This document shows positions 9,165-39,011 of a stretch of DNA of 39,011 bases, piece by piece (within the stretch, counting starts at the first letter, position 1; each line of letters starts with the position of its first letter). Origin of the DNA: Geminocystis sp. GBBB08. GTDB taxonomy: Bacteria; Cyanobacteriota; Cyanobacteriia; Cyanobacteriales; Cyanobacteriaceae. The notes beneath the pieces were generated by a model. That model was given only the letters and a program-made list of their open reading frames with translations. It was not told where the DNA came from and did not search any database. A program made the position numbers and the translations under genes. The stretch spans positions 1 to 39,011 of the forward strand of contig NZ_VRZC01000016.1 in the NCBI RefSeq assembly GCF_016743215.1, written 5' to 3'.

Positions 9165-9194
9165 TTAACAGACTCTAAAATAATTGGTTATAAT
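9165..9194 (+). promoter_or_regulatory. Probable sigma-70-type promoter of der
   Basis: TTAACA (9165-9170), an 18-base spacer and a perfect TATAAT (9189-9194) lie 28 bases before the ATG at 9223. The motif makes an upstream start at 9184 unlikely, because that start would lie across the promoter. Confidence 0.55.
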
Positions 9195-9222
9195 AGTAAG
9201 GTTATGTTTAATTTTTAAAGTC

Positions 9223-10581
9223 ATGCTTCCTATCGTTGCCATTATAGGCCGTCCGAATGTTGGTAAATCTGCTCTAGTTAATCGTTTATCAGGAGAACAA
9301 GATGCGATCGTATATGATGAACCAGGTATAACTAGAGATCGTACTTATCGACCGGCATTTTGGCAAGACAGAGAATTTCAGATAGTTGATACAGGTGGTT
9401 TAGTCTTTGATGATGATACCGAATTTTTACCCTTTATTCGTGAACAAGCACAGGCGGCATTAGCAGAAGCAGTAGCGGCGATAATGGTTGTGGATGGGCA
9501 AATAGGTTTAACTGCCGGGGATGAAGAAATTGCCTAATGGTTACGCACTGAAAATGTGCCGGTTGTTTTAGCTGTCAATAAATGTGAGTCGGAAAAAGAA
9601 GGATTAACCCTAGCTGCGGAGTTTTGGAATTTAGGCTTAGGTGAACCTTACCCTCTTTCGGCTATTCATGGCAATGGTACAGCAGAACTATTAGAGGATT
9701 TAATTCAATACTTGCCCACTATGGATGAGATTGAGGAAGTAGAGGAGATAAAAGTAGCCATAATCGGAAGACCAAATGTAGGCAAATCAAGTCTTTTGAA
9801 TGCTTTAACGGGGGAAAATCGCTCTATTGTTAGCCCTGTTTCCGGGACAACTCGAGACGCTATTGATATGGTAGTAGAAAGAAATGGTAAAACTTATCGT
9901 CTCATTGACACCGCAGGAATTAGACGAAAAAAAAATGTTGACTATGGTGCAGAATTTTTTGGGATTAACAGGGCATTTAAAGCCATAAAAAGGGCAGATG
10001 TTGTTTTATTCGTGATTGATATTTTAGATGGCGTTACCGAGCAAGATTTAAAATTAGCCGGTAGAATTATCGAAGAAGGAAGGGCTGCGGTTATTATCGC
10101 TAACAAATGGGATGCGGTGGAAAAAGATTCCCATACCATCTATGAATACCAAAAAATCCTTGATGATCGACTATTTTTTATGGAATGGGCAGAGAGAATT
10201 TTCGTCTCCGCTATGTCAGGTAAAAGAGTAGAAAATATTTTCCAGTTGATAGATAACGCCTCCGAAGGCCATAAAAAACGAGTTAGTACAGCAGTAATCA
10301 ATGAAGTGCTAGAGGAAGCCTTTAAATGGCATTCACCACCAACCACAAGACAAGGCAAACAAGGAAGAATTTATTATGGCACTCAAGTAACCAATAAACC
10401 TCCTACTATTGCTTTATTTGTTAATGATCCTAAACGATTAGATAATAATTATCGTCGCTACATTGAAAAACAATTCCGAGAACAATTAGGCTTCAAAGGT
10501 ACACCCTTAAAATTACTTTGGCGTGGCAAAAAACTGCGAGAAGGAGAAAAGATGGGTGGAAATCGAGCTACTAAAGTATAA
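9223..10581 (+). pseudogene. der: Ribosome-assembly GTPase Der, interrupted by one in-frame TAA
   Basis: Der (EngA) is a two-GTPase-domain protein needed for 50S ribosome assembly and normally essential. Reading from ATG 9223 gives GTPase domain 1 with [17 protein letters not shown] and DTGG, then TAA at codon 105 (9535-9537). The same frame continues at once with [18 protein letters not shown] (G4 NKCE), a complete second GTPase domain ([22 protein letters not shown]) and the KH-like C-terminus. The total of about 452 codons matches full-length Der, so one sense codon, probably GAA or another Glu/Gln codon, has become TAA with no frameshift or loss. The 3' part could be expressed separately from GTG 9556, but would lack G1-G3 of domain 1. 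A sequencing error, real inactivation with a second copy elsewhere, or readthrough are all possible. Confidence 0.85.
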
Positions 10582-25687: not shown

Positions 25688-25758
25688 CCTAGGGCGTGTC
25701 ATCAATTAAAACTTAAAAACAGGTAATATATACCTTGAAATAATTTTTTCCCAAAAAT
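25688..25758 (+). mobile_element. Solo 71-bp end of an IS5-like element (left copy)
   Basis: This stretch, starting CCTAGGGCGTGTCATC and ending TTTTTTCCCAAAAAT, is identical over 71 bases to the reverse complement of 38328-38398. There it leads directly into an IS5-family transposase remnant. Here it joins TnpB debris on one side and the broken ParA frame on the other, with no transposase left. Confidence 0.85.
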
Positions 25759-27045: not shown

Positions 27046-27270
27046 ATGATGGAAACAATTACCATTCAAGTTGATCCTGAAATTGCCAAAGCTTATCGAG
27101 AAACCAAACCTGAAAAACAGCAAAAAATTGGTATGTTTCTCAATGTAATGCTAAAAAAGGCTATTAATCAAAAACCACTGCTAGACATTATGGAAGAAGC
27201 AAGTCAACAAGCGATCGCTAATGGAATGACTCCAGAAATTTTACAATCAATTCTCAATGATGACAACTAA
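27046..27270 (+). CDS. Antitoxin of a PIN-domain toxin-antitoxin pair (left, intact)
   Basis: The 74-aa protein (METITIQVDPEIAKAYRETK at the start; MEEASQQAIANGMTPEILQSILND at the end) directly precedes a PIN toxin gene and overlaps it by 14 bp. Its N-terminal strand (ITIQVDPEIAKAY) looks like a ribbon-helix-helix-type DNA-binding start, and its helical C-terminus would bind the toxin. A clear paralogue, with the same ITIQVxPxxAKAY start and GxTPEIL..ILND end, lies at 37501-37755 in the opposite orientation. Such antitoxins normally repress their own operon. Confidence 0.75.
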   Translation: MMETITIQVDPEIAKAYRETKPEKQQKIGMFLNVMLKKAINQKPLLDIMEEASQQAIANGMTPEILQSILNDDN

Positions 27271-27682
27271 ACGAATCGTCATTGACACAAATGTAATAGT
27301 AAGTGCATTGATTTTCTCTCAATCTACCACTATGCAAGTTTTTAGAGAAGCAAAAGAAAAGGGAGTGCTTTTAATTTCTTCTGAGATTTTATCAGAACTA
27401 ATTGATGTCTTGAGTCGTCAAAAATTCGATCGTTATCTCTCCAGAGATATTCGTGAGGATTTTCTAGCTGGTTTATCTGTAGAAGCAGAAATCATAGAAA
27501 TTACTGAAAAAATAGAGATTTGTCGAGATTCCAATGATAATAAATTTTTAGAATTAGCAGTTAATGGAAATGCAACCCACATTATAACAGGGGATAAAGA
27601 CTTATTAGAATTGCATCCCTTTCAAGGTATTCCTATTTTAACACCAAGACAATTTTTACAATTTATCGCAGAAATCAACTAA
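27257..27682 (+). CDS. PIN-domain toxin, putative ribonuclease (COG1569-type), left copy
   Basis: The 141-aa PIN protein has the acidic metal ligands in the usual order: VIDTNVIVSAL (Asp10), SSEILSEL, CRDSNDNKFLELA and ITGDKDLLEL. PIN toxins cleave RNA when released from their antitoxin. The ATG overlaps the antitoxin end (TCAATGATGACAACTAA), a translationally coupled arrangement; the second ATG at 27260 is equally possible. Motifs are intact, unlike the related right-hand copy at 37083-37508. Confidence 0.85.
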   Translation: MMTTKRIVIDTNVIVSALIFSQSTTMQVFREAKEKGVLLISSEILSELIDVLSRQKFDRYLSRDIREDFLAGLSVEAEIIEITEKIEICRDSNDNKFLELAVNGNATHIITGDKDLLELHPFQGIPILTPRQFLQFIAEIN

Positions 27683-27941: not shown

Positions 27942-28331
27942 TTATGGTTCTTTCCACATAAATGTAATTTCAGGATTAGGGTGTGAAATAAAACCATGAT
28001 TTTCATACCATTTTTTTCGGTCAAAACCATCTTCTGCTATGGTATTGCTAGGTCTTTGTAATATAATAGGTTTTCGATTTCTGGTAAATAGAGTTTCACA
28101 GGTTTTATCTAGTAAATAACTGCCATAACCCTGTCTCTCAAATTCAGAAAATATCTCTATCTTGTCTAAATGCCATGCGTCTTCTTCTTTGTTTCTAAAA
28201 TTATCTAAACAAACACTTATTCCAACTTGTGTACCATCTTGTTTAAATAAACCAAAACTAATTCCTGATCTTGAATCTTTGTGATCTATTTCCTTAAAAA
28301 TAACATGGTTATCATTAATTTTGTTATTCAT
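27942..28331 (-). CDS. GNAT-family N-acetyltransferase
   Basis: The 129-aa protein has the acetyl-CoA-binding motif A in KIEIFSEFERQGYGSYLLDK (R/QxxGxG/S form, about residues 57-76) and the C-terminal KKWYENHGFISHP typical of GNAT enzymes. It lies 49 bp downstream of the 1726-aa ATPase gene on the same strand, so it may be the last gene of that operon. It could modify a protein or small molecule; its substrate is unknown. No DUF1778-type antitoxin accompanies it, so a TacT-like toxin role is not supported. Confidence 0.8.
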   Translation of the reverse strand: MNNKINDNHVIFKEIDHKDSRSGISFGLFKQDGTQVGISVCLDNFRNKEEDAWHLDKIEIFSEFERQGYGSYLLDKTCETLFTRNRKPIILQRPSNTIAEDGFDRKKWYENHGFISHPNPEITFMWKEP

Positions 28332-28380
28332 ATTTTTTTGATTATCTCAATATTTCTCATTGTTACTTAATCTTTTAAAT

Positions 28381-31300
28381 TTATATATTAATTTTGTTAA
28401 AACCTGTTTCACTATTATAGTAATATCTTTCAATTTCTTCATTATAAAATTTTCTAAATAATCTATGCCAATGAAGTATAATATCATTTTTTGTACCTTC
28501 GGAGTTTTGTTGTAATCCAATGACAGATTCAATTTTTCCACTAGCGTTACTGTTATATGTTATTTCTGTTTGATCTAAATGTTCTAAAGATTTTTGAATA
28601 GTTGAAAAAGCATTTTTTATACGAATTAATTGAATTGGTTTTCCATTTTCGTGTGAATATATTAATAATTCGTAATTTTCTTTATTTTGTTTCATAAACT
28701 CCCATTCTGTTTTTGTTAAACGAATACGAGGTCTCGTATAAGTAATAGCTTTTACCTCAACTTTTATTTCTACATTATTAGAAAAGTCTCTTTTAGAGCA
28801 TAATAAATCAAATCCAGGATTATTAATTTTTTCGCCATTAACATTATTTTTATTATCAACTTCATAATCTAAAAATCTGTATAATTTTTCTCCATATTCT
28901 TCTCCTAACTTTCCTATTCTCTCGGCTTCTTCTTTATTTTTTATTGTACCGTCATCTTCATCGCCTTCCAAAGGCTTATTATTAGTTTCAGGCGTAGAAT
29001 TTGGGTTTGCAATTTGAGTACCATTTTTTATCCAATCAAATTCTTCACATAATTTGTCAACTAAATCTGTTTTTAATTCACCATATTTTAACGTTAATAC
29101 ATATTGAATAACTTTTGACCTTTCATCTAAATCTTCGGCAATATTTTTAATCCATTCTGTTAGTAAATCTGCTTTAATATTTTTACTGAGTTTTTGTTCT
29201 TCTTGACGACAAGCTAAAAAGAAGGCTAAACCATATTCATCATATTTATCACTTAAAATATACTCATTAGGTGCAAAAGCGGATAGTAACTTTTCTTCAT
29301 TATCCTTGCTATTAATATTTAACAATTGATTAGTATTTTCATAGTTATTTTCTTGGTTTAAAAACTCAATTTTTTTTAACAATTCGATGAATTTTTCATA
29401 TTCTGTTTTTCCATTTGTTTTGACTTCTTCAAGAAAATTTGAGTTAATTAATTTTCCTATTTTATTAGCTATTTCTGGTTTTACTTCCTTGTTTTTAATT
29501 AAGTGGTTTAAAATATCTATTAATAGAAGAGGTTTAGCATTTAATTTTGGTAATGAATAATTAAAATCTAATATTTTTTCAAATTCACGCCATTGTTTTC
29601 CATTAATAATAACATTTTTGGAAAAAGGATTTTTAACTTCTATTAGTTCAAAAACTTGATTAAAATATTTTGCTAAGATTCCATCAATGATATATTTAAT
29701 TTCTGTAGCAGAAACTAAGCATTGATATTGATCTGATAAACCATTAGGTAAGGCAGGACAATTTAGTAAAAAATAGCCCATTCCTTTATGTTGAGTTAAT
29801 AAAACTTTTCTGATTAAATTATAATTTTCTGTTTCTGGTTTATTAAGTAAAGAAATGATTAATTCTTTCCAGATAAATTCCCAAAACTGATAGATTGTAA
29901 TCTCATTTCCCAGATGAAAAATTGCTCTAAAATAATCCCAATCATTTTGAGTTTGTTCAAATAACTTACATAATTGTTTTCCTAGTAATTTTCCTAACTT
30001 TTCAGCTATTTCTGTATTGCGTTGAGATTCTCTAATAGTTGAACGTCCTGTATCAACATCAAATTGAGCATTGACAATAAAATTTAATTGTAATTTTTCT
30101 TTTGTAGGAGCAGTTACCCAAATGTTAGGAATATCCTCAGTTAAGCTAGATTTTATTTGATTTTGTTGTTGATGAAAAGCAATTAATAAATGTCCTGAAT
30201 CACTTGTTAGATCATTATCTTCTAATTTGATACAAATAACATTGGTTTTATGTTCATTAATAGTGATTTGACCTATTTCGATATTTTGTTCCATATCGTT
30301 AGGAAAAAATTGAGGTTTCCATTGTTCCTCTTTATATAAATTTTCTTCATAATTATTTTTCCTAATAAATTGACAATTTTTTATTTGTCTAGCAAATATT
30401 AAAAGAATGCTAACCAAATTTTCAAAATCATTAATAATATTGTCGGAAGATATATTAAGGTTTTTATCTATTGGTAATTTAATAATGGTTGCATCGGAAA
30501 AATCAGGATTGTATTTTTGCAGTTCTTTTTCTAATTCAGTGCGAACTAATCCCAAAATATTACGACTGGGAAGTAAACCTCCAAAAATAGTAAAGGCAAG
30601 TCTATGACTTAAAATTCGAGGCTCTTGAGAAATTAAATGAACGCTTTTAAAGCCTAAACCAAATTTTCCAGTAACTTTTATTTCACTTGTGCCATCATCA
30701 TTTTTACCGTTAAAATTATGAGATTTATTTGATTGATTGAAAGACAACATTTTTTGTAAATCACGTTCAAAACCTCTCTTTTTATAATCATTACTACGAT
30801 AGAGAGGATGTCTATGACAATTAATTGGTCTTCCCCAATACATCATAACAATAGCAAAATTTGTTTTTTGTCCAGAAGCGGAAATAATATTTTCTGTTTT
30901 TAAAATGAATTGAAAACGATTTTCAGGTAAAGGTTGAGGTGAAGGTTCATCTTTAGCCATCATTTTTAACTCAACCAGAGCATCATCAGCATTTTGGAAA
31001 ATTTCAAAAGGGATACTTGTATAACTATAGCCGTTTAATGCTATTTCATTTCTGACGGCTTCTAAAACGTGAGATGCGACTTCTTTGTCATTTTCTAGGA
31101 GTTCTGCAAGTTCTTCTTGAAGATCATCAATTTTTTGGGATACTGGACTATAATCTTGCTTGTATTGTTTACATCCTTCTAATTCATATTCGGCTTGTAT
31201 TAATTGCTCTATTATGTCACCAATTTTTGGATTAGTTTTGTTTACCCGTAGTCTTTCAATAATGTATTGAACACTTCGCAGAATGATATTTCTAGTTACA

Positions 31301-33561
31301 TCTATATCTAATTGTTCTGGTTTAGTTAAATTCGCCCAAAATTTGTCAATATCCTGATTACAACCATAAAATTCTACCAGTTCTTGTATTGATTTTTTCA
31401 ATAACTTGTGTAAGTCTTCTTTGGATTTACTTTCGGGATTATGAACAGGTAATATAGTGATTTCATTAGTTAAATAATTTAATTCAAATAGGTGAGATAA
31501 GTCTTTTTTTCTTTCTGCCTGAAATTTCTTACGAGTTAAAGAATTTAATTGAATAGTATTATCAGTTAAAGATTTTGTTGAAATAAGAAAATTAATTAAT
31601 TCTTTTTCGGGAATCAAAGCTCGTAAAACAATGTCTATAGATGTATTTCCTAAATATTCTTGTGCTAGTTCTTTTAATCTCAGATTGTTTTCCATAATTA
31701 GACAGAGAAAACTACCTATTGTTTCAGGATAAACATGATTCCAGTGTTTAAAGTAATTAGATAAAAGTTCAGATTTATCTTGCTCAATTTCATAATCTTG
31801 TAATTCATCAATATTGTGATATTCTATTTCTTCTTCATCTATTTTTTTTGATAAATATTCTTCAATAATTTTATATTGGGTTTCATTGACAATGTAAAAA
31901 TCATCAGCCGTTGAATTGGGCTTATAATCTGATAATCTCTCAGGAGATGTCCATTTGTTTGCTAAATTTAATAGAAGAATATTGGGCAATATTTCTTGTA
32001 AAAAATTATGCGGATTTTCTGTAATGCTTTCTTGTAAATATTGATTATATAAAGCGATCGCTATCTCATTATTTCCTTTATAATCAGAAATCCAATTTAA
32101 TAACTTAATAAGTTTATCATTATCAATTCGTTGTAAAAGATAGGGCAAAATATACTTTTTACAATCTTCTCGGTTTGAATGTGCTTTTCCTAATTGTTCA
32201 ATTAAACTCCAGCAAGGTAAAATATCTAAATCAATTCCTTCAAATACTTCTAAAGCATCCTCTAAAGGAAAATCAGATACATTAAATTCACCTAAATAAT
32301 AATCAGATAATTTACCTGCACTTTCACCAACAATTTTCAGAGCATCTATCCCAGTGATAAATAACTCTTGTTTAAGCCATTTTAAGACTGTTTCATTTTG
32401 TTTAATTCTTGAATCAAGCATTTCTACAGTGACATAATGACTTTCAGAAGATTCTAAAATTTCTGTTGCTTCTCTTTCAATTTTAAATTTAGAAACATCA
32501 ATTACTTGTGCAGGTGATATGCTATTTCCCTTTTCTGTTATTAGCCAGTTTTTAGTTCGTAAATATTGTAAAGTTTGATCAGGAATATTTGGATTATCTT
32601 TTTGACAGTAAATCTGTAAAACATCAATAATAATTTCAATATAGTCAGATGGAGATTCTTGGGATAATAATATCTCGATAACCTTTTCTTGATACCACCT
32701 TTCAAATAATTTGGATATGCTATTTGATTCAGAATAAGATAATTGTAATTCTTCTTCAGAGTAATATCTTTCACAATAATAATCACTACCTAATTGTGCA
32801 ACTATTTTTGTATATTTAGCTAATTCTTTTGGTAATCTGATAATATTTTGAGGTGCAATATTCTCTCCCGTTTTTAGTATTAACCAAGATGTTTCTTTTA
32901 ATCTTGACTCATATTTTTGTTTAAATATTTCTAATTCTTTATTGGATTTCCAAATATTTAAAATTAAATCAGTATAATTTGAAGGATTAGTTTGATTTAA
33001 GATGACTTCCATTGCTGAATTTGAATCCCATAGGTTAATCCATCTTGTCTGCAAATCTGATAAATTAGGATTTTTAGTATTTGGTTTAATTAAAGTAATA
33101 ATATTTTTTAATTTTGGATTCAGTGGATAACGAGAATTTTCTAAGTAAGTAAAATTACTAATTGATACTAAATCACCGTTAGTATTTTCATGTAAAGGTA
33201 ATAATCTCCATAAATCTTTATTATTAATATCTTTACCGATTTCTGTTAATAAAGTTTCCCTTTCAGTAGAAGTTAATTGATTAGCATTTATTAAATTTTC
33301 TCCTTTTTCTTCTTTTAATAATTTGATAACATTTTCTTGTGTAAAACGTTCTAATCCTAAAGACGTATATTTAACAGATAAAATTTTAGATGATAGTTCT
33401 GTCGGTATTAATCTCCATGATTCTTTCTTTTTCGATAAGACTTGATGAGCAATTTTAAACCATAAATTATTATTGTCAGCATTTGACATTATATATAGTG
33501 GTTTTTGATTATTGTATTCTTGTTTTTGTCCATGTAATAAGTAGCGAATTTCTAAATCCAT
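28381..33561 (-). CDS. 1726-aa sacsin-like GHKL ATPase with C-terminal DUF3883 nuclease-like domain
   Basis: Residues 1-800 are a large helical region without a recognised domain. A GHKL (Hsp90/sacsin-type) ATPase follows: the Mg/ATP-binding N-box IPFEIFQNADDALVEL (850-865) and the glycine loop VTGKFGLGFKSVHLIS (963-978). About 570 residues later, after an acidic linker (EGDEDDG), a DUF3883 domain (about 1548-1650) carries Asp1585 (NPGFDLL) and Glu1602-Val-Lys1604 (KVEVKA), then RLTKTEW. This is a D...ExK pattern resembling PD-(D/E)xK nucleases. The start ATG 33561 follows AAGGAGAT, which overlaps the stop of the preceding 831-aa gene 14 bp away, so translation is coupled. Proteins of this build are seen in defence islands, but I cannot match this pair to a named system. 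Confidence 0.82.
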   Translation of the reverse strand: MDLEIRYLLHGQKQEYNNQKPLYIMSNADNNNLWFKIAHQVLSKKKESWRLIPTELSSKILSVKYTSLGLERFTQENVIKLLKEEKGENLINANQLTSTERETLLTEIGKDINNKDLWRLLPLHENTNGDLVSISNFTYLENSRYPLNPKLKNIITLIKPNTKNPNLSDLQTRWINLWDSNSAMEVILNQTNPSNYTDLILNIWKSNKELEIFKQKYESRLKETSWLILKTGENIAPQNIIRLPKELAKYTKIVAQLGSDYYCERYYSEEELQLSYSESNSISKLFERWYQEKVIEILLSQESPSDYIEIIIDVLQIYCQKDNPNIPDQTLQYLRTKNWLITEKGNSISPAQVIDVSKFKIEREATEILESSESHYVTVEMLDSRIKQNETVLKWLKQELFITGIDALKIVGESAGKLSDYYLGEFNVSDFPLEDALEVFEGIDLDILPCWSLIEQLGKAHSNREDCKKYILPYLLQRIDNDKLIKLLNWISDYKGNNEIAIALYNQYLQESITENPHNFLQEILPNILLLNLANKWTSPERLSDYKPNSTADDFYIVNETQYKIIEEYLSKKIDEEEIEYHNIDELQDYEIEQDKSELLSNYFKHWNHVYPETIGSFLCLIMENNLRLKELAQEYLGNTSIDIVLRALIPEKELINFLISTKSLTDNTIQLNSLTRKKFQAERKKDLSHLFELNYLTNEITILPVHNPESKSKEDLHKLLKKSIQELVEFYGCNQDIDKFWANLTKPEQLDIDVTRNIILRSVQYIIERLRVNKTNPKIGDIIEQLIQAEYELEGCKQYKQDYSPVSQKIDDLQEELAELLENDKEVASHVLEAVRNEIALNGYSYTSIPFEIFQNADDALVELKMMAKDEPSPQPLPENRFQFILKTENIISASGQKTNFAIVMMYWGRPINCHRHPLYRSNDYKKRGFERDLQKMLSFNQSNKSHNFNGKNDDGTSEIKVTGKFGLGFKSVHLISQEPRILSHRLAFTIFGGLLPSRNILGLVRTELEKELQKYNPDFSDATIIKLPIDKNLNISSDNIINDFENLVSILLIFARQIKNCQFIRKNNYEENLYKEEQWKPQFFPNDMEQNIEIGQITINEHKTNVICIKLEDNDLTSDSGHLLIAFHQQQNQIKSSLTEDIPNIWVTAPTKEKLQLNFIVNAQFDVDTGRSTIRESQRNTEIAEKLGKLLGKQLCKLFEQTQNDWDYFRAIFHLGNEITIYQFWEFIWKELIISLLNKPETENYNLIRKVLLTQHKGMGYFLLNCPALPNGLSDQYQCLVSATEIKYIIDGILAKYFNQVFELIEVKNPFSKNVIINGKQWREFEKILDFNYSLPKLNAKPLLLIDILNHLIKNKEVKPEIANKIGKLINSNFLEEVKTNGKTEYEKFIELLKKIEFLNQENNYENTNQLLNINSKDNEEKLLSAFAPNEYILSDKYDEYGLAFFLACRQEEQKLSKNIKADLLTEWIKNIAEDLDERSKVIQYVLTLKYGELKTDLVDKLCEEFDWIKNGTQIANPNSTPETNNKPLEGDEDDGTIKNKEEAERIGKLGEEYGEKLYRFLDYEVDNKNNVNGEKINNPGFDLLCSKRDFSNNVEIKVEVKAITYTRPRIRLTKTEWEFMKQNKENYELLIYSHENGKPIQLIRIKNAFSTIQKSLEHLDQTEITYNSNASGKIESVIGLQQNSEGTKNDIILHWHRLFRKFYNEEIERYYYNSETGFNKINI

Positions 33562-33575
33562 GATGAATTATCTCC

Positions 33576-36071
33576 TTAAAGTAAATTGATTAATAGTTTA
33601 ATTCTTTGACTAGCATCGGCTAATGGTGGGGTTGCTCTTAAGATTTCTCGACAAGTGTTAATATTACAAAATATTGGGTTAATATCTTTTATTTGTTCTA
33701 GTAAATTACCAAATTCTTTCTCTACTATAATCGGTTTTAAATCTTGAATTGCATTTACTAAAGCCCTCAAATTATCATTCTTTGATTTGAATAAACGAGA
33801 TTCGCTTTTAAATCTTTTAAATTGATTGTAAGAATAAAAATTTAAGTTATTACTAAAATATTCTTGAGCAGCTAAACATAGTAAATTAGGGTTATTGGAT
33901 AATAAAGGTAGTAAGTTATTCTCAGATAAATTTAATATTTGTATAAGCAAGTTTAAAATATTTTCTTGACTAAACTTAGTTATATTAATCCATTCTTGAA
34001 TAGCAGATAAAATATTTAAAGAATCTTGATATTCTAATGAATTACAGTGACTGGATATATTAAATTTAGCTGGTAATAGTAACGCATTTATTTCTTGATT
34101 TTTAGATAACTCTTTTAGCATATATTCTGGACAATTGAGAAGAATCAGTTTTTGATGATCAATAAACTCAATTAATTCCTTAATAGCTTGTATTTTTTCT
34201 TCAGTAAATTGATTAAATGGGAAATCAGTTAAGATTCCTCTTAAAGTTTTAATAAGACTTTGTTCTACTTCTTCATTTCCTTCGTTGGTATCATAATTTT
34301 CTTTTAAAAATGAATTAAGATATTTAATAGCACAAATATCAGTAAAAACTTTTTGTATATTCAGATTATCTAAAAACCATTTGATTTCTTGTTTAGACCA
34401 TTTATCTGAACTATTACCTTCATAACGAAGATTAGGAAGATTATCTAATGTTAATAAACAATATGATTTATCAATCAGATTTTTTAAGTGTGAAAATACA
34501 CTCCATAAATTTATATTTTGAGTGTTTGGTAAGGATAACACTTTCGCTCCTTTATTTAATAATTGCCACTTATTACCTTGTGGTGTTAAACAATAAATCC
34601 ATTCAGTTTGTTCACAAATATTTTGACGATATATATTACTCTTAAATAACCTAGATTTTCTTAAACCATCACATAGATAATATATTTCTTTAGCATTTAA
34701 TTGGTGATATTCTGCAAAATATTTAAGAGAGGGTAAGACTTGTTTTAATGTTCCTTTAGTAGCTAATGTTTTATTCCACTGTTGGATCATTTCTTCTTCT
34801 TTAGTTGGTGTTTTATGTGGCAATAACCCCGTTCTAATAGCACCTAAAGAATCAATATTATTCCTTCCAGAATCTAAGAAAAAATAACCATGTAAAGTGA
34901 CACTATAATCATAATTTGATTGAGAATCTATACTTTCAAATTCTTCTATTTCTTTATCTAAACTTTCAGCTAAAGGCAAAAATACTGCCCATTGAATCGT
35001 TAATTTTGCTGATTGATTTTGTTTATTTTTTTGAGTAAAAATTACAGCACAATGAGGTACAGACTTATCGGGAACAATCTTATCATCTCCATGATCGTCG
35101 ATCGCAGAACGTTTTGACCAATATGGAGAATTTTGTAATTTGTCCCAAAAATTACTCGAATCTTGATATGTAATTAAATGTTGAAATTCACTAGATGATA
35201 TAATAGCTTCTTGTCCCGCAAATTTTAATTGTTTATTTGGGTTATTAAAAGAAACTAAACCTTGCAATTTGTTAGTTACTGATTGGTTATAGTTAGCAGT
35301 TTGGCTTGGATATTGACATCGTTGTAATCCTTCCTGATTAACTTGAATAGCAAATTTCTTTTGAAGATTTGTACCGTTTGGTATCCAGTAGCGAACTGCC
35401 CTTAAATGCCTTAACATTGGTAATAATGAAGCTATCTTATCCTCCATGTTATCAGGGAATTGAGTCTGAATAGAGTTTAAATTATAATAATTAGCTAAAA
35501 TACAACGATTATCCTCTGTTGGTTGTCGTAAAGGTATCCATAAAATAAAATAGTCGGAATTCTCTATAATTAATTTTTGTTCTTTTAAATATTTTTCTAA
35601 ATTTAATCTATCTTGCTCTGATAATTCTATCCATTCAGGTCTTTTTTTATCTCCTGTCTCTTCAGACCAAGGATTTAAAAAACGTCCACAACCTTCAGGA
35701 ATTATTTGTGAACGTGCAATAAAGAAGAAGGCTTCACAGAAATGAAATACACTTTTTTGTCCTAACCCAAACTTTCCTATTTTTTCCTTATTTCCAGCAT
35801 TAGCGTCAACTCCGATATAGCCAATAGCTTTAGCATCACTTGGTGTAAATGTACCATCGTTGAGAAAAAATATTGCTGGGCATTTCAGCAGAGGATGACT
35901 TACGGAATTTCCTAAACCTCCTACCAGACCAAAATCTAACTGAGTAGCTTTTCCATCGTTAGCATTTTGGATAATTTCCTTGATAATCGGAAAACCTTCT
36001 TTATATCTTTCCTTAAGTAAACTTTTTATTTGATTGATGATAACGCCAGGAGTTATTGTAAAGCCAGTCAT
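33576..36071 (-). CDS. 831-aa protein with N-terminal GHKL (Hsp90/sacsin-like) ATPase domain
   Basis: The ATPase lies at the extreme N-terminus: N-box KEIIQNANDGKA (31-42), a substitute for the DxGxG loop FFLNDGTF (68-75), and the lid glycine motif GKFGLGQKSVFH (99-110), much as in sacsin repeats (ELLQNADDA, GxFGxG). About 700 further residues are helical with no domain I recognise. It is the middle gene of a minus-strand operon, coupled to the 1726-aa gene, which has a second ATPase of the same superfamily. The two proteins probably act together, one perhaps sensing or loading and the other carrying the nuclease-like domain (inference). The first ATG, 36071, gives the full N-box. Confidence 0.8.
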   Translation of the reverse strand: MTGFTITPGVIINQIKSLLKERYKEGFPIIKEIIQNANDGKATQLDFGLVGGLGNSVSHPLLKCPAIFFLNDGTFTPSDAKAIGYIGVDANAGNKEKIGKFGLGQKSVFHFCEAFFFIARSQIIPEGCGRFLNPWSEETGDKKRPEWIELSEQDRLNLEKYLKEQKLIIENSDYFILWIPLRQPTEDNRCILANYYNLNSIQTQFPDNMEDKIASLLPMLRHLRAVRYWIPNGTNLQKKFAIQVNQEGLQRCQYPSQTANYNQSVTNKLQGLVSFNNPNKQLKFAGQEAIISSSEFQHLITYQDSSNFWDKLQNSPYWSKRSAIDDHGDDKIVPDKSVPHCAVIFTQKNKQNQSAKLTIQWAVFLPLAESLDKEIEEFESIDSQSNYDYSVTLHGYFFLDSGRNNIDSLGAIRTGLLPHKTPTKEEEMIQQWNKTLATKGTLKQVLPSLKYFAEYHQLNAKEIYYLCDGLRKSRLFKSNIYRQNICEQTEWIYCLTPQGNKWQLLNKGAKVLSLPNTQNINLWSVFSHLKNLIDKSYCLLTLDNLPNLRYEGNSSDKWSKQEIKWFLDNLNIQKVFTDICAIKYLNSFLKENYDTNEGNEEVEQSLIKTLRGILTDFPFNQFTEEKIQAIKELIEFIDHQKLILLNCPEYMLKELSKNQEINALLLPAKFNISSHCNSLEYQDSLNILSAIQEWINITKFSQENILNLLIQILNLSENNLLPLLSNNPNLLCLAAQEYFSNNLNFYSYNQFKRFKSESRLFKSKNDNLRALVNAIQDLKPIIVEKEFGNLLEQIKDINPIFCNINTCREILRATPPLADASQRIKLLINLL

Positions 36072-36144
36072 AATAAACTTTTTTATTTCTCTTAAATAGT
36101 AGTATAGAACAATTCTGTTAACTTAAAATATTAATAGTTTTATA

Positions 36145-36978
36145 TTAATCATCACGAAATTGATCCCATGCGGCTTGGTTAAAAGTAGAAGGATCTCCCC
36201 AATCTACTCCGTCATAAGGATCTGAGTTACTATAATAGTCATAATCATCATCATCAATATCATCTTGATAATAATCAGGCTCTGATTCTTGTTCATGCCA
36301 ATCTACTTGATTTTCTTGTATCTCATCTTCATATTCTAAATAATCATCGGTAATACTATTTTCCCCTGTATCTGATTTACTTAGCGAGACATCTAAACCA
36401 TTATCTTTAAATTCCTTAACGATTTCATCGAGGGGATCTTCTAATAAATCTAACAATTTTTCGGGAGAAATTTTATTTTTATCAAGTTGTAAGGCTTCAA
36501 TTAAATATTCTCCTATTTTGATATTTTTTCGACTATTCCAAGCACCAACATATAACAAAATATTACTGCTTTTTTGATAATAATTATAAAGATGCTGTTG
36601 ATAATCTACTTCCTCAAAATAGTAGTAAAGTCTATCAGGGTTTTGAATATTTAATTTTGATAATAATTGGACAATTTGCACTACCTGATTACCAACTAAT
36701 TGACTTTCTGTAGAATTAGTCAAATAAACTGCTAAATAATAAGCTCGTTGTTTAATTAAATCAGATAATATATAACAATGATTATAACAATTACAATAAA
36801 CTTTAATGGTTAATAATTTTTGTTTAATATCATCATTAAAACTGTTAAAAAATTTGTCAGATTTATCTCTAATTGGAGTATATTCTCCTATGAGTAAACT
36901 TAAAGAAGATTTAGATAACTGCCAACGTTGAATCAATTGCTGAAAAATGATTTTATCCTCTGAATTGGGATTCGTCAT
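36145..36978 (-). CDS. 277-aa protein with highly acidic C-terminal tail
   Basis: I recognise no family. The first ~175 residues are helical, with a Tyr/Cys-rich stretch (VYCNCYNHCYILSDLIKQRAYYLA). From about residue 205 the protein is extremely acidic and Tyr-rich (DDYLEYEDEIQENQ, DDIDDDDYDYYS) and ends DPSTFNQAAWDQFRDD. It is the first gene of the operon, 73 bp before the 831-aa ATPase gene. The acidic tail could bind a basic surface or mimic DNA, which is a guess. Its fixed position before two GHKL ATPases suggests it belongs to the same system. Confidence 0.65.
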   Translation of the reverse strand: MTNPNSEDKIIFQQLIQRWQLSKSSLSLLIGEYTPIRDKSDKFFNSFNDDIKQKLLTIKVYCNCYNHCYILSDLIKQRAYYLAVYLTNSTESQLVGNQVVQIVQLLSKLNIQNPDRLYYYFEEVDYQQHLYNYYQKSSNILLYVGAWNSRKNIKIGEYLIEALQLDKNKISPEKLLDLLEDPLDEIVKEFKDNGLDVSLSKSDTGENSITDDYLEYEDEIQENQVDWHEQESEPDYYQDDIDDDDYDYYSNSDPYDGVDWGDPSTFNQAAWDQFRDD

Positions 36979-37082: not shown

Positions 37083-37508
37083 TTATGTGACAATATAATC
37101 TGATTCTAAAAATTCTTTAACATTGAGAATAGAAATACCTTGAAAGGGATGCAACACCAGTAAATCAGCATCTCCACTTATAATTGCAGTAGCTAAACCA
37201 CTAACCGCTAATTCTAAAAATTTGTTATCTTTGGCATCTCGACAAGCGGTAATTTCTTCGGTAACGTCAATAAATTTAACACTATTAAATAACTCAATTA
37301 AAAATAATTTTTTCTCGCCAGAAGTAATATATTTATCGAATTTTGGACGATCTAAAACTTCTTTTATTTCTGCCCAAATCACTTCAGACATTAAAATAAT
37401 TCCCGACTTTCTTGCCTTGTCTAATGCTTAACGTGGTGGACTATTTTTAAATAATAAAGCACTGACTATTACATTGGTATCTAAAACATATTTTGGTAAG
37501 TTAGTCAT
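37083..37508 (-). pseudogene. PIN-domain toxin, right copy, broken by an in-frame TAA
   Basis: From ATG 37508, which overlaps the antitoxin stop (CAATGACTAA), the frame reads MTNLPKYVLDTNVIVSALLF with catalytic Asp10, then SPPR and TAA at codon 27 (37428-37430). The frame then continues with the rest of a PIN protein: CRDAKDNKFLELAVSG, ISGDADLLVLHPFQGISIL. It is a clear relative of the intact left toxin at 27257-27682. The change is consistent with CAA to TAA (PRQAL). A shorter product could start at ATG 37391 but would lack Asp10 and so should be inactive. Confidence 0.85.
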
Positions 37509-37755
37509 TGAGAATATCCGCTAAAATTTCAGGTGTTAAGCCTCTGGAAATAGCTCTATCGCTAATTTCGTCCATTATTTTACCTAAAAAATCAATCTCG
37601 TCTTTTACTTCTTCGTCAAAAAAGAGAGATGCGTTGCCTGACGGCACAGCGAAGCTGTACGCACTTAGGCGTTGTTTTTCTTTTTCGGTAGCTGATTGAT
37701 AGGCTTTTGCTACTTGAGGAGTAACTTGGATGGTAATTTCGTCACTAATCGGCAT
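37501..37755 (-). CDS. Antitoxin of PIN pair, right copy, carrying an inserted repeat
   Basis: The 84-aa protein starts ISDEITIQVTPQVAKAYQSA and ends ISDRAISRGLTPEILADILND, matching the left antitoxin at 27046-27270. Between them, residues 29-43 (RLSAYSFAVPSGNAS) are encoded by a dispersed repeat (37628-37670, GCGTTGCCTGACGGCAC...GTACGCAC), which adds about 14 residues in frame compared with a clean version. The partner toxin is broken, so this antitoxin may be free to drift, or may protect against the left toxin (inference). Confidence 0.7.
   Translation of the reverse strand: MPISDEITIQVTPQVAKAYQSATEKEKQRLSAYSFAVPSGNASLFFDEEVKDEIDFLGKIMDEISDRAISRGLTPEILADILND
37628..37670 (-). repeat. Dispersed repeat inside the right antitoxin gene
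   Basis: The segment reads, on the minus strand, CGCCTAAGTGCGTACAGC, TTCGCTGTGCCGTCAGGC, AACGCATC. It has the look of a GC-richer dispersed cyanobacterial repeat in an otherwise AT-rich gene. Confidence 0.6.
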
Positions 37756-38327: not shown

Positions 38328-38398
38328 ATTTTTGGGAAAAAATTATTTCAAGGTATATATTACCTGTTTTTAAGTTTTAATTGATGACACGCCCTAGG
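38328..38398 (-). mobile_element. 71-bp IS5-like element end (right copy)
   Basis: The reverse complement of this stretch is identical to 25688-25758. It begins CCTAGGGCGTGTCATC at its outer edge and leads inward, within about 25 bases, to the start codon of the transposase remnant, so it is the transposase-proximal end of the element. Confidence 0.87.
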
Positions 38399-38600: not shown

Positions 38601-39011
38601 TTAGGCTTGAATCGAATCCAAAGCCTTTTCTACCCGACGGAAGTCAAATCCCAAAGCGCGTAAAGCGTGCCATAAATGTCCCTGTAAGAAAAAGAAAGCA
38701 AGGAAAAAATGAGCATTAGCTAACCATGCACGAGATGTATGTTCTCCGTAAGGTAATTGAACGGTATCTGCAAAATAAGGAGTGATTCCCAATTTCACTT
38801 CTAAGGCAGGTCCGTAAAATTCTACAGGATAAGCTAAAGTATTAACAGCGCAAAAGTAAGCCGCCACGAATCCGGCTAAGGCAATTCCTCCTAAAGAATA
38901 AGATAAAATTGCTTCTCCAGAGAACATAAGTACTCGTTTGGCCCATTTTAAAGGTGGTATCAAAATATGCCATACCCCACCAACGATGAGCATAACGCCT
39001 ACATATATATG
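38601..39011 (-). CDS. isiA: Iron-stress chlorophyll-binding antenna protein, IsiA/CP43' family (C-terminal part)
   Basis: The 3' end of a gene that enters from the right edge; 136 codons are visible (frame [16 protein letters not shown] onward). The segment holds the last membrane helices of a CP43-like protein, with histidines placed for chlorophyll binding in GGVWHI and [13 protein letters not shown], and the lumenal stretch [19 protein letters not shown]. It ends [16 protein letters not shown]. The large lumenal loop and C-terminal tail of PsbC are absent, which points to IsiA/Pcb antenna proteins. IsiA rings surround photosystem I under iron limitation. No isiB flavodoxin gene follows. 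A Pcb-type paralogue is the main alternative. Confidence 0.87.

Follow-up and report, generated by a model that had tools for sequence, protein, structure and literature searches.

Two adjacent minus-strand genes in a 39,011-nucleotide stretch of Geminocystis sp. GBBB08 DNA (contig NZ_VRZC01000016.1, analysed in full and here called the window) encode proteins of 831 and 1726 amino acids (aa) that, judged by their relatives, are two halves of one machine. Each half carries a GHKL ATPase module with recognisable motifs, and the halves occur together or fused in other genomes. The C-terminus of the 1726-aa protein is, by sequence comparison, an exchangeable module with matched neighbours: a DUF3883/NOV_C domain with a conserved D...ExK signature in the window, and a DarT domain or a helical end in other family members. 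We consider it probable that the pair is a giant two-GHKL, Hsp90/sacsin-like switch that is driven by ATP and releases a DNA-attacking effector at its C-terminus. An invader would be sensed directly or via associated restriction or BREX parts; sensing would lead to ATP binding and clamping by the first and second ATPase modules (ATPase-1 and ATPase-2), and clamping would release or license the effector held at the C-terminus. In the window copy, a PD-(D/E)xK-like DUF3883 effector would then cut DNA, and relatives would use the same slot for DarT or for a helical module that acts together with a DrmD-like helicase. Genomic context strongly suggests an anti-phage or anti-plasmid role, and we infer both the gating step and DNA as the target. 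An earlier interpretation made without database searches (the sequence-only reading) had proposed a two-ATPase machine with a possible nuclease, guarding against phages or plasmids and organised as a four-gene unit. The coupled machine, the probable nuclease output and the defence context are retained here; the four-gene unit is not.

The ATPase pair and its relatives

The minus strand of the window, which is one complete contig (C77), carries open reading frames (ORFs) of 129, 1726, 831 and 277 aa at 27942-28331, 28381-33561, 33576-36071 and 36145-36978, the same four genes in the order that had been described. The close coupling previously noted between the two ATPase genes is equally evident: 14 bp separate the stop of the 831-aa gene (33576..36071, minus strand) from the start of the 1726-aa gene (28381..33561, minus strand), and the TAA stop continues into an AAGGAG ribosome site. 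The pair is present as a single copy in its own genome (4.10 Mb, 325 contigs).

The suggestion that both proteins are GHKL ATPases agrees with profile and motif evidence. The 831-aa protein, a sacsin-type GHKL module with a helical remainder, matches Pfam SACS at 7.2e-20 (72.3 bits, against a cut-off of 32.8) and combines the SACS domain with the N-box and G-box by which sacsin-type GHKL proteins are recognised; its family profile matches the solved sacsin domains 5v44-5v47 in the PDB at 1.8e-21 to 3.1e-22. Seven residues of ATPase-1 (E32, N36, D39, G99, G102, G104 and R403) are invariant in 10/10 aligned rows (alignment A1), and D72 is D or N among relatives. ATPase-2 occupies aa 831-1493 of the 1726-aa protein (29083..31071, minus strand; profile match 4e-184). 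It thus lies in mid-protein behind some 830 residues, which corrects the architecture proposed earlier, of which the C-terminal DUF3883 domain stands. A SACS match at aa 960-993 falls below the curated cut-off (0.00029), and a PDB sequence search with the 1726-aa protein gave only 0.037 at best. The N-box (E853-Q856-N857-D860), the G-box (G965-G968-G970) and R1173 are invariant in every row with a letter at these positions (60-61 rows). We take the conserved arginine of each module, R403 and R1173, to contact ATP, as in Hsp90. Motif II of GHKL proteins is D-x-G-x-G; in ATPase-2 it reads H-x-G-R-P-I-N family-wide (H in 57/60 rows, G in 59/60 and R in 59/60), with Y in place of H in the window. 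This H/Y-x-G-R-P-I-N motif may reflect altered nucleotide use. An H-x-G motif II also occurs in a single-ATPase SACS-NOV_C protein (locus L132).

It is because both halves are fused in a single protein, typically of 2,300-2,600 aa, in most relatives examined that the two window proteins are regarded as one machine. The 831-aa protein corresponds to the N-terminal third of these fusions and the 1726-aa protein to the remaining two thirds, the ~830-residue N-terminal stretch of the latter directly continuing the 831-aa part. The protein is split into two ORFs in 21/68 members (de-duplicated, with L116, L132 and two L025 rows dropped), and the split position varies, L024, L051 and L087 differing from the others.

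A profile scan of genome contigs recovered at least 181 confirmed relatives. Among the best 80 of 181, which were examined, the pair or its fusion occurs in more than 10 phyla, including Pseudomonadota, Planctomycetota, Chloroflexota, Acidobacteriota, Verrucomicrobiota, Bacteroidota, Actinomycetota, Gemmatimonadota, Spirochaetota, Thermodesulfobacteriota and others. The concern raised at the outset, that the two ATPases might never be found together elsewhere, is thereby removed. Within the phylum of the window, the 831-aa protein finds matches in 17/386 genomes. In 7 the match extends along most of the protein or a large part of it; in the remaining 10 it is confined to a short stretch, which covers the ATP site in nine of ten. 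Fused members are also found on Deinococcus and alphaproteobacterial plasmids, the plasmid copies amounting to 7 records. Carriage of the family by phages was considered and rejected: a scan of viral sequences with the single protein gave no match, and among the 10 loci from a profile scan, L153 is a full helical-ended member with helicase on a contig that is filed as viral and may be host DNA. On a Haematobacter plasmid (L025:7520-18279), a 1,405-aa protein, in which an ATPase-2-like region is combined with a weak DUF3883 match, stands directly upstream of a fused double-ATPase member.

The C-terminal slot and its modules

Full-length relatives align to the 1726-aa protein only until about residue 1500-1530, unless they too end in DUF3883. 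The ends were surveyed in 72 de-duplicated rows, 7 of which have no recognised end (four lie at contig ends or are broken) and 3 of which are cut. DUF3883 had previously been viewed as part of the machine; the survey makes it one of three interchangeable modules and not a fixed component, and most examined family members are without a NOV_C domain.

The helical end is found in 46/72 rows, as a ~350-aa module with no Pfam match in the two scanned. An SNF2 helicase gene (~900 aa) stands beside all of these (46/46). By the set rule for adjacency the count is 42/46; in L092, L096 and L100 the overlap between the ORFs is longer, and in L051 the helicase is encoded on the opposite strand. A single small ORF separates the two genes in L023, L053 and L057. 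In the three helicases scanned, the PADLOC DrmD model scores best (871 to 2174 bits). The DarT end is found in 7/72 rows (L027, L028, L029, L040, L041, L170 and L171), as the tail of a ~1,960-aa GHKL protein. It was identified by PF14487 in the two members scanned with Pfam (2.4e-24 and 3.8e-28) and by a profile built here in the remaining five, and a macro-domain gene follows the DarT member in 7/7 cases (PF01661, 6.5e-16 in the one scanned). An SNF2 helicase also occurs near two DarT members, L028 (upstream, on the opposite strand) and L170 (~2.6 kb on). The DUF3883 end belongs to eight double-ATPase members: the window, L031, L052, L163, L164, L166, L167 and L169. L132, with one ATPase, is not counted as a member, and L172 is a further case, fragmentary because its contig stops there. 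The eight DUF3883 loci yielded no helicase of this family, with just 1.3 kb of sequence behind the gene at L163. The idea that the window's own genome encodes a partner helicase at another place was rejected, the best match to one family helicase being 4.1e-8, with 29% over a segment.

The distribution of these modules on a tree of 62 ATPase-2 cores indicates that slot exchange is recent and repeated. The tree calls for 4 label changes for DUF3883 and 3 for DarT, and the numbers are the same on well-supported branches alone; these counts overstate the number of events, since rows such as L028 and L029, which are near-copies, are not independent of one another. The window clusters with L031 (support 97/92), and a group of three is recovered when L163 is added (100/100). 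The DUF3883-ended L164 and the DarT-ended L170 are tree sisters (100/100) that share 75.5% identity over residues 1-1593, similarity being absent thereafter; L169 (DUF3883) and L171 (DarT) show the same pattern at 65.5% identity. In L167 and L169, a 5'-shortened macro-domain ORF remains behind the DUF3883 version, together with a 72-aa ORF that we read as the end of an SNF2 helicase core, and these seem to be the remains of both other slot states. A swap between DarT and DUF3883 at one boundary, in proteins about 75% identical, provides natural evidence for a carrier of interchangeable weapons.

In the window, the C-terminal module spans aa 1536-1700 (28462..28956, minus strand), within which NOV_C (DUF3883, PF13020) is matched at aa 1567-1644 (9.2e-10). 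The predicted catalytic D...E-x-K extends from codon D1585 to K1604 (28750..28809, minus strand). Glu1602 and Lys1604 lie exactly where the sequence-only reading had placed them, preceded by D1585, and the possibility that these residues would vary among relatives was not borne out: all three are conserved in 9/9 DUF3883 family members (8 full and one fragment; alignment A2). E1554, upstream of D1585, is nearly invariant across the nine. When the DUF3883 profile was compared with one built from 18 Mrr_cat domains of related genomes, the match had 66% probability (E 5.5e-5 for a single comparison), the E, D and ExK of DUF3883 falling in active-site register; four unrelated profiles scored 0.11-0.20%. 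A PDB sequence search with DUF3883 gave only 0.054 at best. In PMC3710099, DUF3883 is called a novel restriction endonuclease domain. We infer that the window module is a predicted PD-(D/E)xK-like nuclease.

For the helical module, a structure model of L045:16607-17653 with 36 relatives (alignment A4, 37 sequences) reached a predicted local distance difference test (pLDDT) score of 88.5. Foldseek against the PDB and viral libraries returned nothing with E < 0.001, and a PDB sequence search gave only 0.16 at best. When 656 Foldseek chains were compared by VIA-align, the highest Z-scores were those of Ogg2 (10.8), DUF2419 queuosine-salvage proteins (8.7, 8.5 and 8.1) and 1xg7 (7.3), the next being 2.5, although helical models can gain such values through a common arrangement. 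The entry 1xg7, titled hypothetical protein, is presumably a glycosylase. On reading the module, the lysine of bifunctional glycosylases is apparently missing. The model is a lead towards a possible base-excising or base-reading role. Should the glycosylase-like resemblance hold, each of the three slot modules would have a fold that acts on DNA or nucleobases.

Defence context and competing explanations

The copy most informative about context is L031, where the gene order is BrxC, PglX, 807-aa ATPase-1, 1678-aa ATPase-2/DUF3883 and PglZ. Genes that cluster with these BREX genes were found at L042 and L058 (PglX and PglZ), L081 (BrxC and PglX) and L084 (BrxC), giving BREX-type clusters at 5/93 sources. 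Eco57I/MmeI-like methylases occur at 6 loci and type III methylases at 4, and the contexts of relatives also include plasmids and an integrase. The homologues are therefore not confined to housekeeping surroundings, as had been feared, given the BREX, restriction-modification and DarT/macro genes that accompany them. At four alphaproteobacterial loci (L074, L079, L085 and L100), a gene for a type III-kind methylase lies upstream of the double-ATPase gene and its helicase, and in the last three a second helicase of the cluster precedes the methylase.

As a control, PADLOC models were run (E up to 1e-20) on 96 neighbours from 34/67 loci, leaving out proteins >1,400 aa and the helicase, macro and module genes, and on 44 ordinary chromosomal proteins from related genomes; 146 and 41 families were matched, respectively. 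Among the matches listed, the neighbours include PDC-S68 (4 proteins), PglZ, PglX, BrxL and type III and IIG restriction enzymes, and those for the control are almost entirely PD-T4-6 (2 proteins), along with mad6, MkoA and a NERD+UvrD model. Both of the last two were matched in neighbours and control alike.

Several of these observations weigh against an effector-releasing defence machine. PADLOC matches are not rare in the control set either, and their number is non-discriminating. The counts do not separate neighbours from control; the case for defence is built on the BREX and restriction genes, the coupled helicase and the pairing of DarT with a macro gene. On the right-hand side of the cassette the neighbourhood is incomplete, as only 2.0 kb of contig remain past the 277-aa gene. 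In addition to the non-independent tree rows, the Mrr_cat match is only 66% probable, and the AlphaFold model of the DUF3883 module reached a pLDDT of just 37.9 on a 3-sequence alignment and was not used. Further, three remoter single-ATPase cyanobacterial sacsin proteins (L035, L036 and L111) are without ExK, and DUF3883 therefore need not be catalytic everywhere. It is the unusable structure model and the missing ExK in these three proteins that keep the nuclease assignment a prediction.

It is conceivable that the family is instead an accessory of modification-based systems such as BREX and methylases, its ATPases handling DNA or restriction complexes and its C-terminus reading DNA marks, with no weapon involved. 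Such a role would suit L031, which groups with the window and sits inside a BREX operon between BrxC-PglX and PglZ, as well as the four further loci with related BREX genes, the methylases that adjoin several copies, and the modelled likeness of the helical end to glycosylase folds. However, the DarT found in this slot, together with its macro gene, resembles an enzyme with its antidote and not a reader, and copies without BREX-type neighbours are the rule among the 93 sources. No BrxC, PglX or PglZ was found among the ten proteins scanned around the window cassette, which is close to the contig end on one side. We therefore consider this reading unlikely, though worth keeping in mind.

A simpler proposal is that the pair is just a two-gene version of Tiamat (TmtA), a system defined by a single protein with one N-terminal GHKL module. 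The likeness is substantial: both are sacsin/GHKL ATPases with a C-terminal NOV_C domain, TmtA models are the best PADLOC matches of both pair proteins (1.8e-17 at best), and the H-x-G motif II is shared by L132. But no single-GHKL protein matched along its length is present here; the pair consists of two proteins with one GHKL module each, some 2,550 aa in total. The TmtA models match stretches only (for example, 133-371 of 1486 and 1096-1518 of 1538). Across the family, two GHKL modules are contained in ~2,500 aa, sometimes split, with the C-terminus exchanged for DarT or for the helicase-linked helical module and NOV_C lacking in most members examined. Identity with Tiamat is accordingly quite improbable.

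Resemblance to other named systems is confined to the slot and its neighbours. The seven DarT-ended relatives share a DarT domain (PF14487 in the two scanned) and an adjacent macro-domain gene with DarTG, but in these relatives a giant ATPase carries DarT as its tail. In the window copy DUF3883 takes its place, and Pfam found neither a DarT domain nor a macro antitoxin in the cassette and its neighbours. Class 1 DISARM combines DrmD with a core of DrmA, DrmB and DrmC. In the three cases scanned, the PADLOC DrmD model is the best match of the helicase that accompanies helical-ended members, yet this helicase is paired with a giant double-ATPase protein, and a scan of the ten window proteins (E up to 0.1) detected no Drm proteins, the contig end again being near on one side. 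With eukaryotic sacsin and NO VEIN, the pair shares the SACS-type ATPase (5v44-5v47) and the NOV_C domain; unlike sacsin, it has neither a DnaJ nor a HEPN domain according to Pfam, and it has two ATPase modules, where sacsin has three (PMC3710099). That the proteins are simply large sacsin/Hsp90-like proteostasis chaperones, with DNA-acting ends and defence neighbours incidental, is very improbable: sacsin is the closest PDB match of ATPase-1 and is described as a chaperone in PMC3710099, but the patchy distribution (17/386 genomes in the phylum, with just a short match in ten of them), the 7 plasmid records, the exchange for DarT, the helicase coupling and the BREX-embedded copy are all difficult to reconcile with such a function.

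Returning to the ATP-driven switch with an exchangeable effector, the parts are known (SACS, NOV_C, DarT and a DrmD-like helicase), and their combination and the slot appear to be new. No description of the family was found in the literature searched, including PMC3710099, PMC12629846, PMC12458937 and PMC12839542; coverage of subscription papers was thin, making this a weak absence. We see an even chance that the family, spread over more than 10 phyla, represents undescribed immune machines in which a giant double-GHKL switch carries a slot for a DUF3883 nuclease, DarT, or an N-glycosylase-like module with a DrmD-like helicase. If so, an Hsp90-type protein would here play the part that a single sensor ATPase plays in defence systems with interchangeable effectors. 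What prokaryotic sacsin-like ATPases and DUF3883 do would become directly testable, and eukaryotic sacsin and NO VEIN would gain a prokaryotic comparison built from the same parts. The helicase coupling also suggests that part of the PADLOC DrmD calls would belong to a different two-gene system.

Flanking genes and the surrounding segment

The remaining two genes of the proposed four-gene operon look, from their distribution, like neighbours only. The 129-aa protein (27942..28331, minus strand) is a GNAT enzyme, as thought (PF00583, 5.3e-6), and has no homologue at the other loci examined. The 277-aa protein (36145..36978, minus strand) is indeed acidic, with an isoelectric point of 4.23 and 28 D/E against 2 K/R in its last 80 residues; a Pfam scan gave no match at E up to 0.1. 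Its homologues were found in close relatives only, in 4/40 related genomes, the own genome counted, with a second own copy on contig C3 and one in the same-genus relative G145, whose coordinates are as on plasmid pGM3709_03 of Geminocystis sp. NIES-3709. All the other copies lie away from the pair; they adjoin AAA genes that read as McrB-like (one annotated 'restriction endonuclease'; Pfam AAA_5, 9.1e-5) or the 1,319-aa SACS-NOV_C protein of L132, and a reverse-transcriptase gene (PF00078) is nearby. Since the GNAT gene is at no other examined locus and the 277-aa gene occurs without the pair, both seem to lie outside the conserved part of the machine, and the four-gene operon as a unit was rejected. 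The 277-aa gene instead marks a variable island of this lineage. In the Geminocystis-lineage island represented by L020, L130, L131 and L132, a reverse transcriptase (PF00078 in the one scanned) and the 277-aa protein occur in shifting combinations with a 683-684-aa AAA protein (3/4) and McrB-like NTPases (3/4).

A perfect 71-bp inverted repeat, with arms at 25688..25758 (plus strand) and 38328..38398 (minus strand), brackets 12.7 kb that include the cassette. The own genome holds no third full copy and one 26-bp partial match. The outer end of the repeat looks like the end of an insertion sequence or of a miniature inverted-repeat transposable element (MITE), and the repeat may mark the limits of a mobile segment of 12.7 kb. 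The idea that relatives share a conserved insertion site was rejected: homologues of the left and right flanks (a 585-aa gene and a chlorophyll-binding gene) are separated by ~1.0 Mb in G386 and by 0.2 Mb in G187, distances that leave no empty site demonstrable. Inside the repeat, two related PIN toxin-antitoxin modules flank the cassette in opposite orientation, at 27046-27682 (plus strand) and 37083-37755 (minus strand); the right-hand PIN ORF is shortened (102 aa) and apparently broken.

Two further observations concern the rest of the window. At 38601-39011, a gene for a CP43-like chlorophyll-binding antenna protein is cut by the contig end. At 9184-10581, an EngA/Der-like GTPase, normally the product of an essential gene, is represented by two ORFs of the same orientation, one of 341 aa and, just upstream of it, one of 117 aa, which may reflect a frameshift or a sequencing error.

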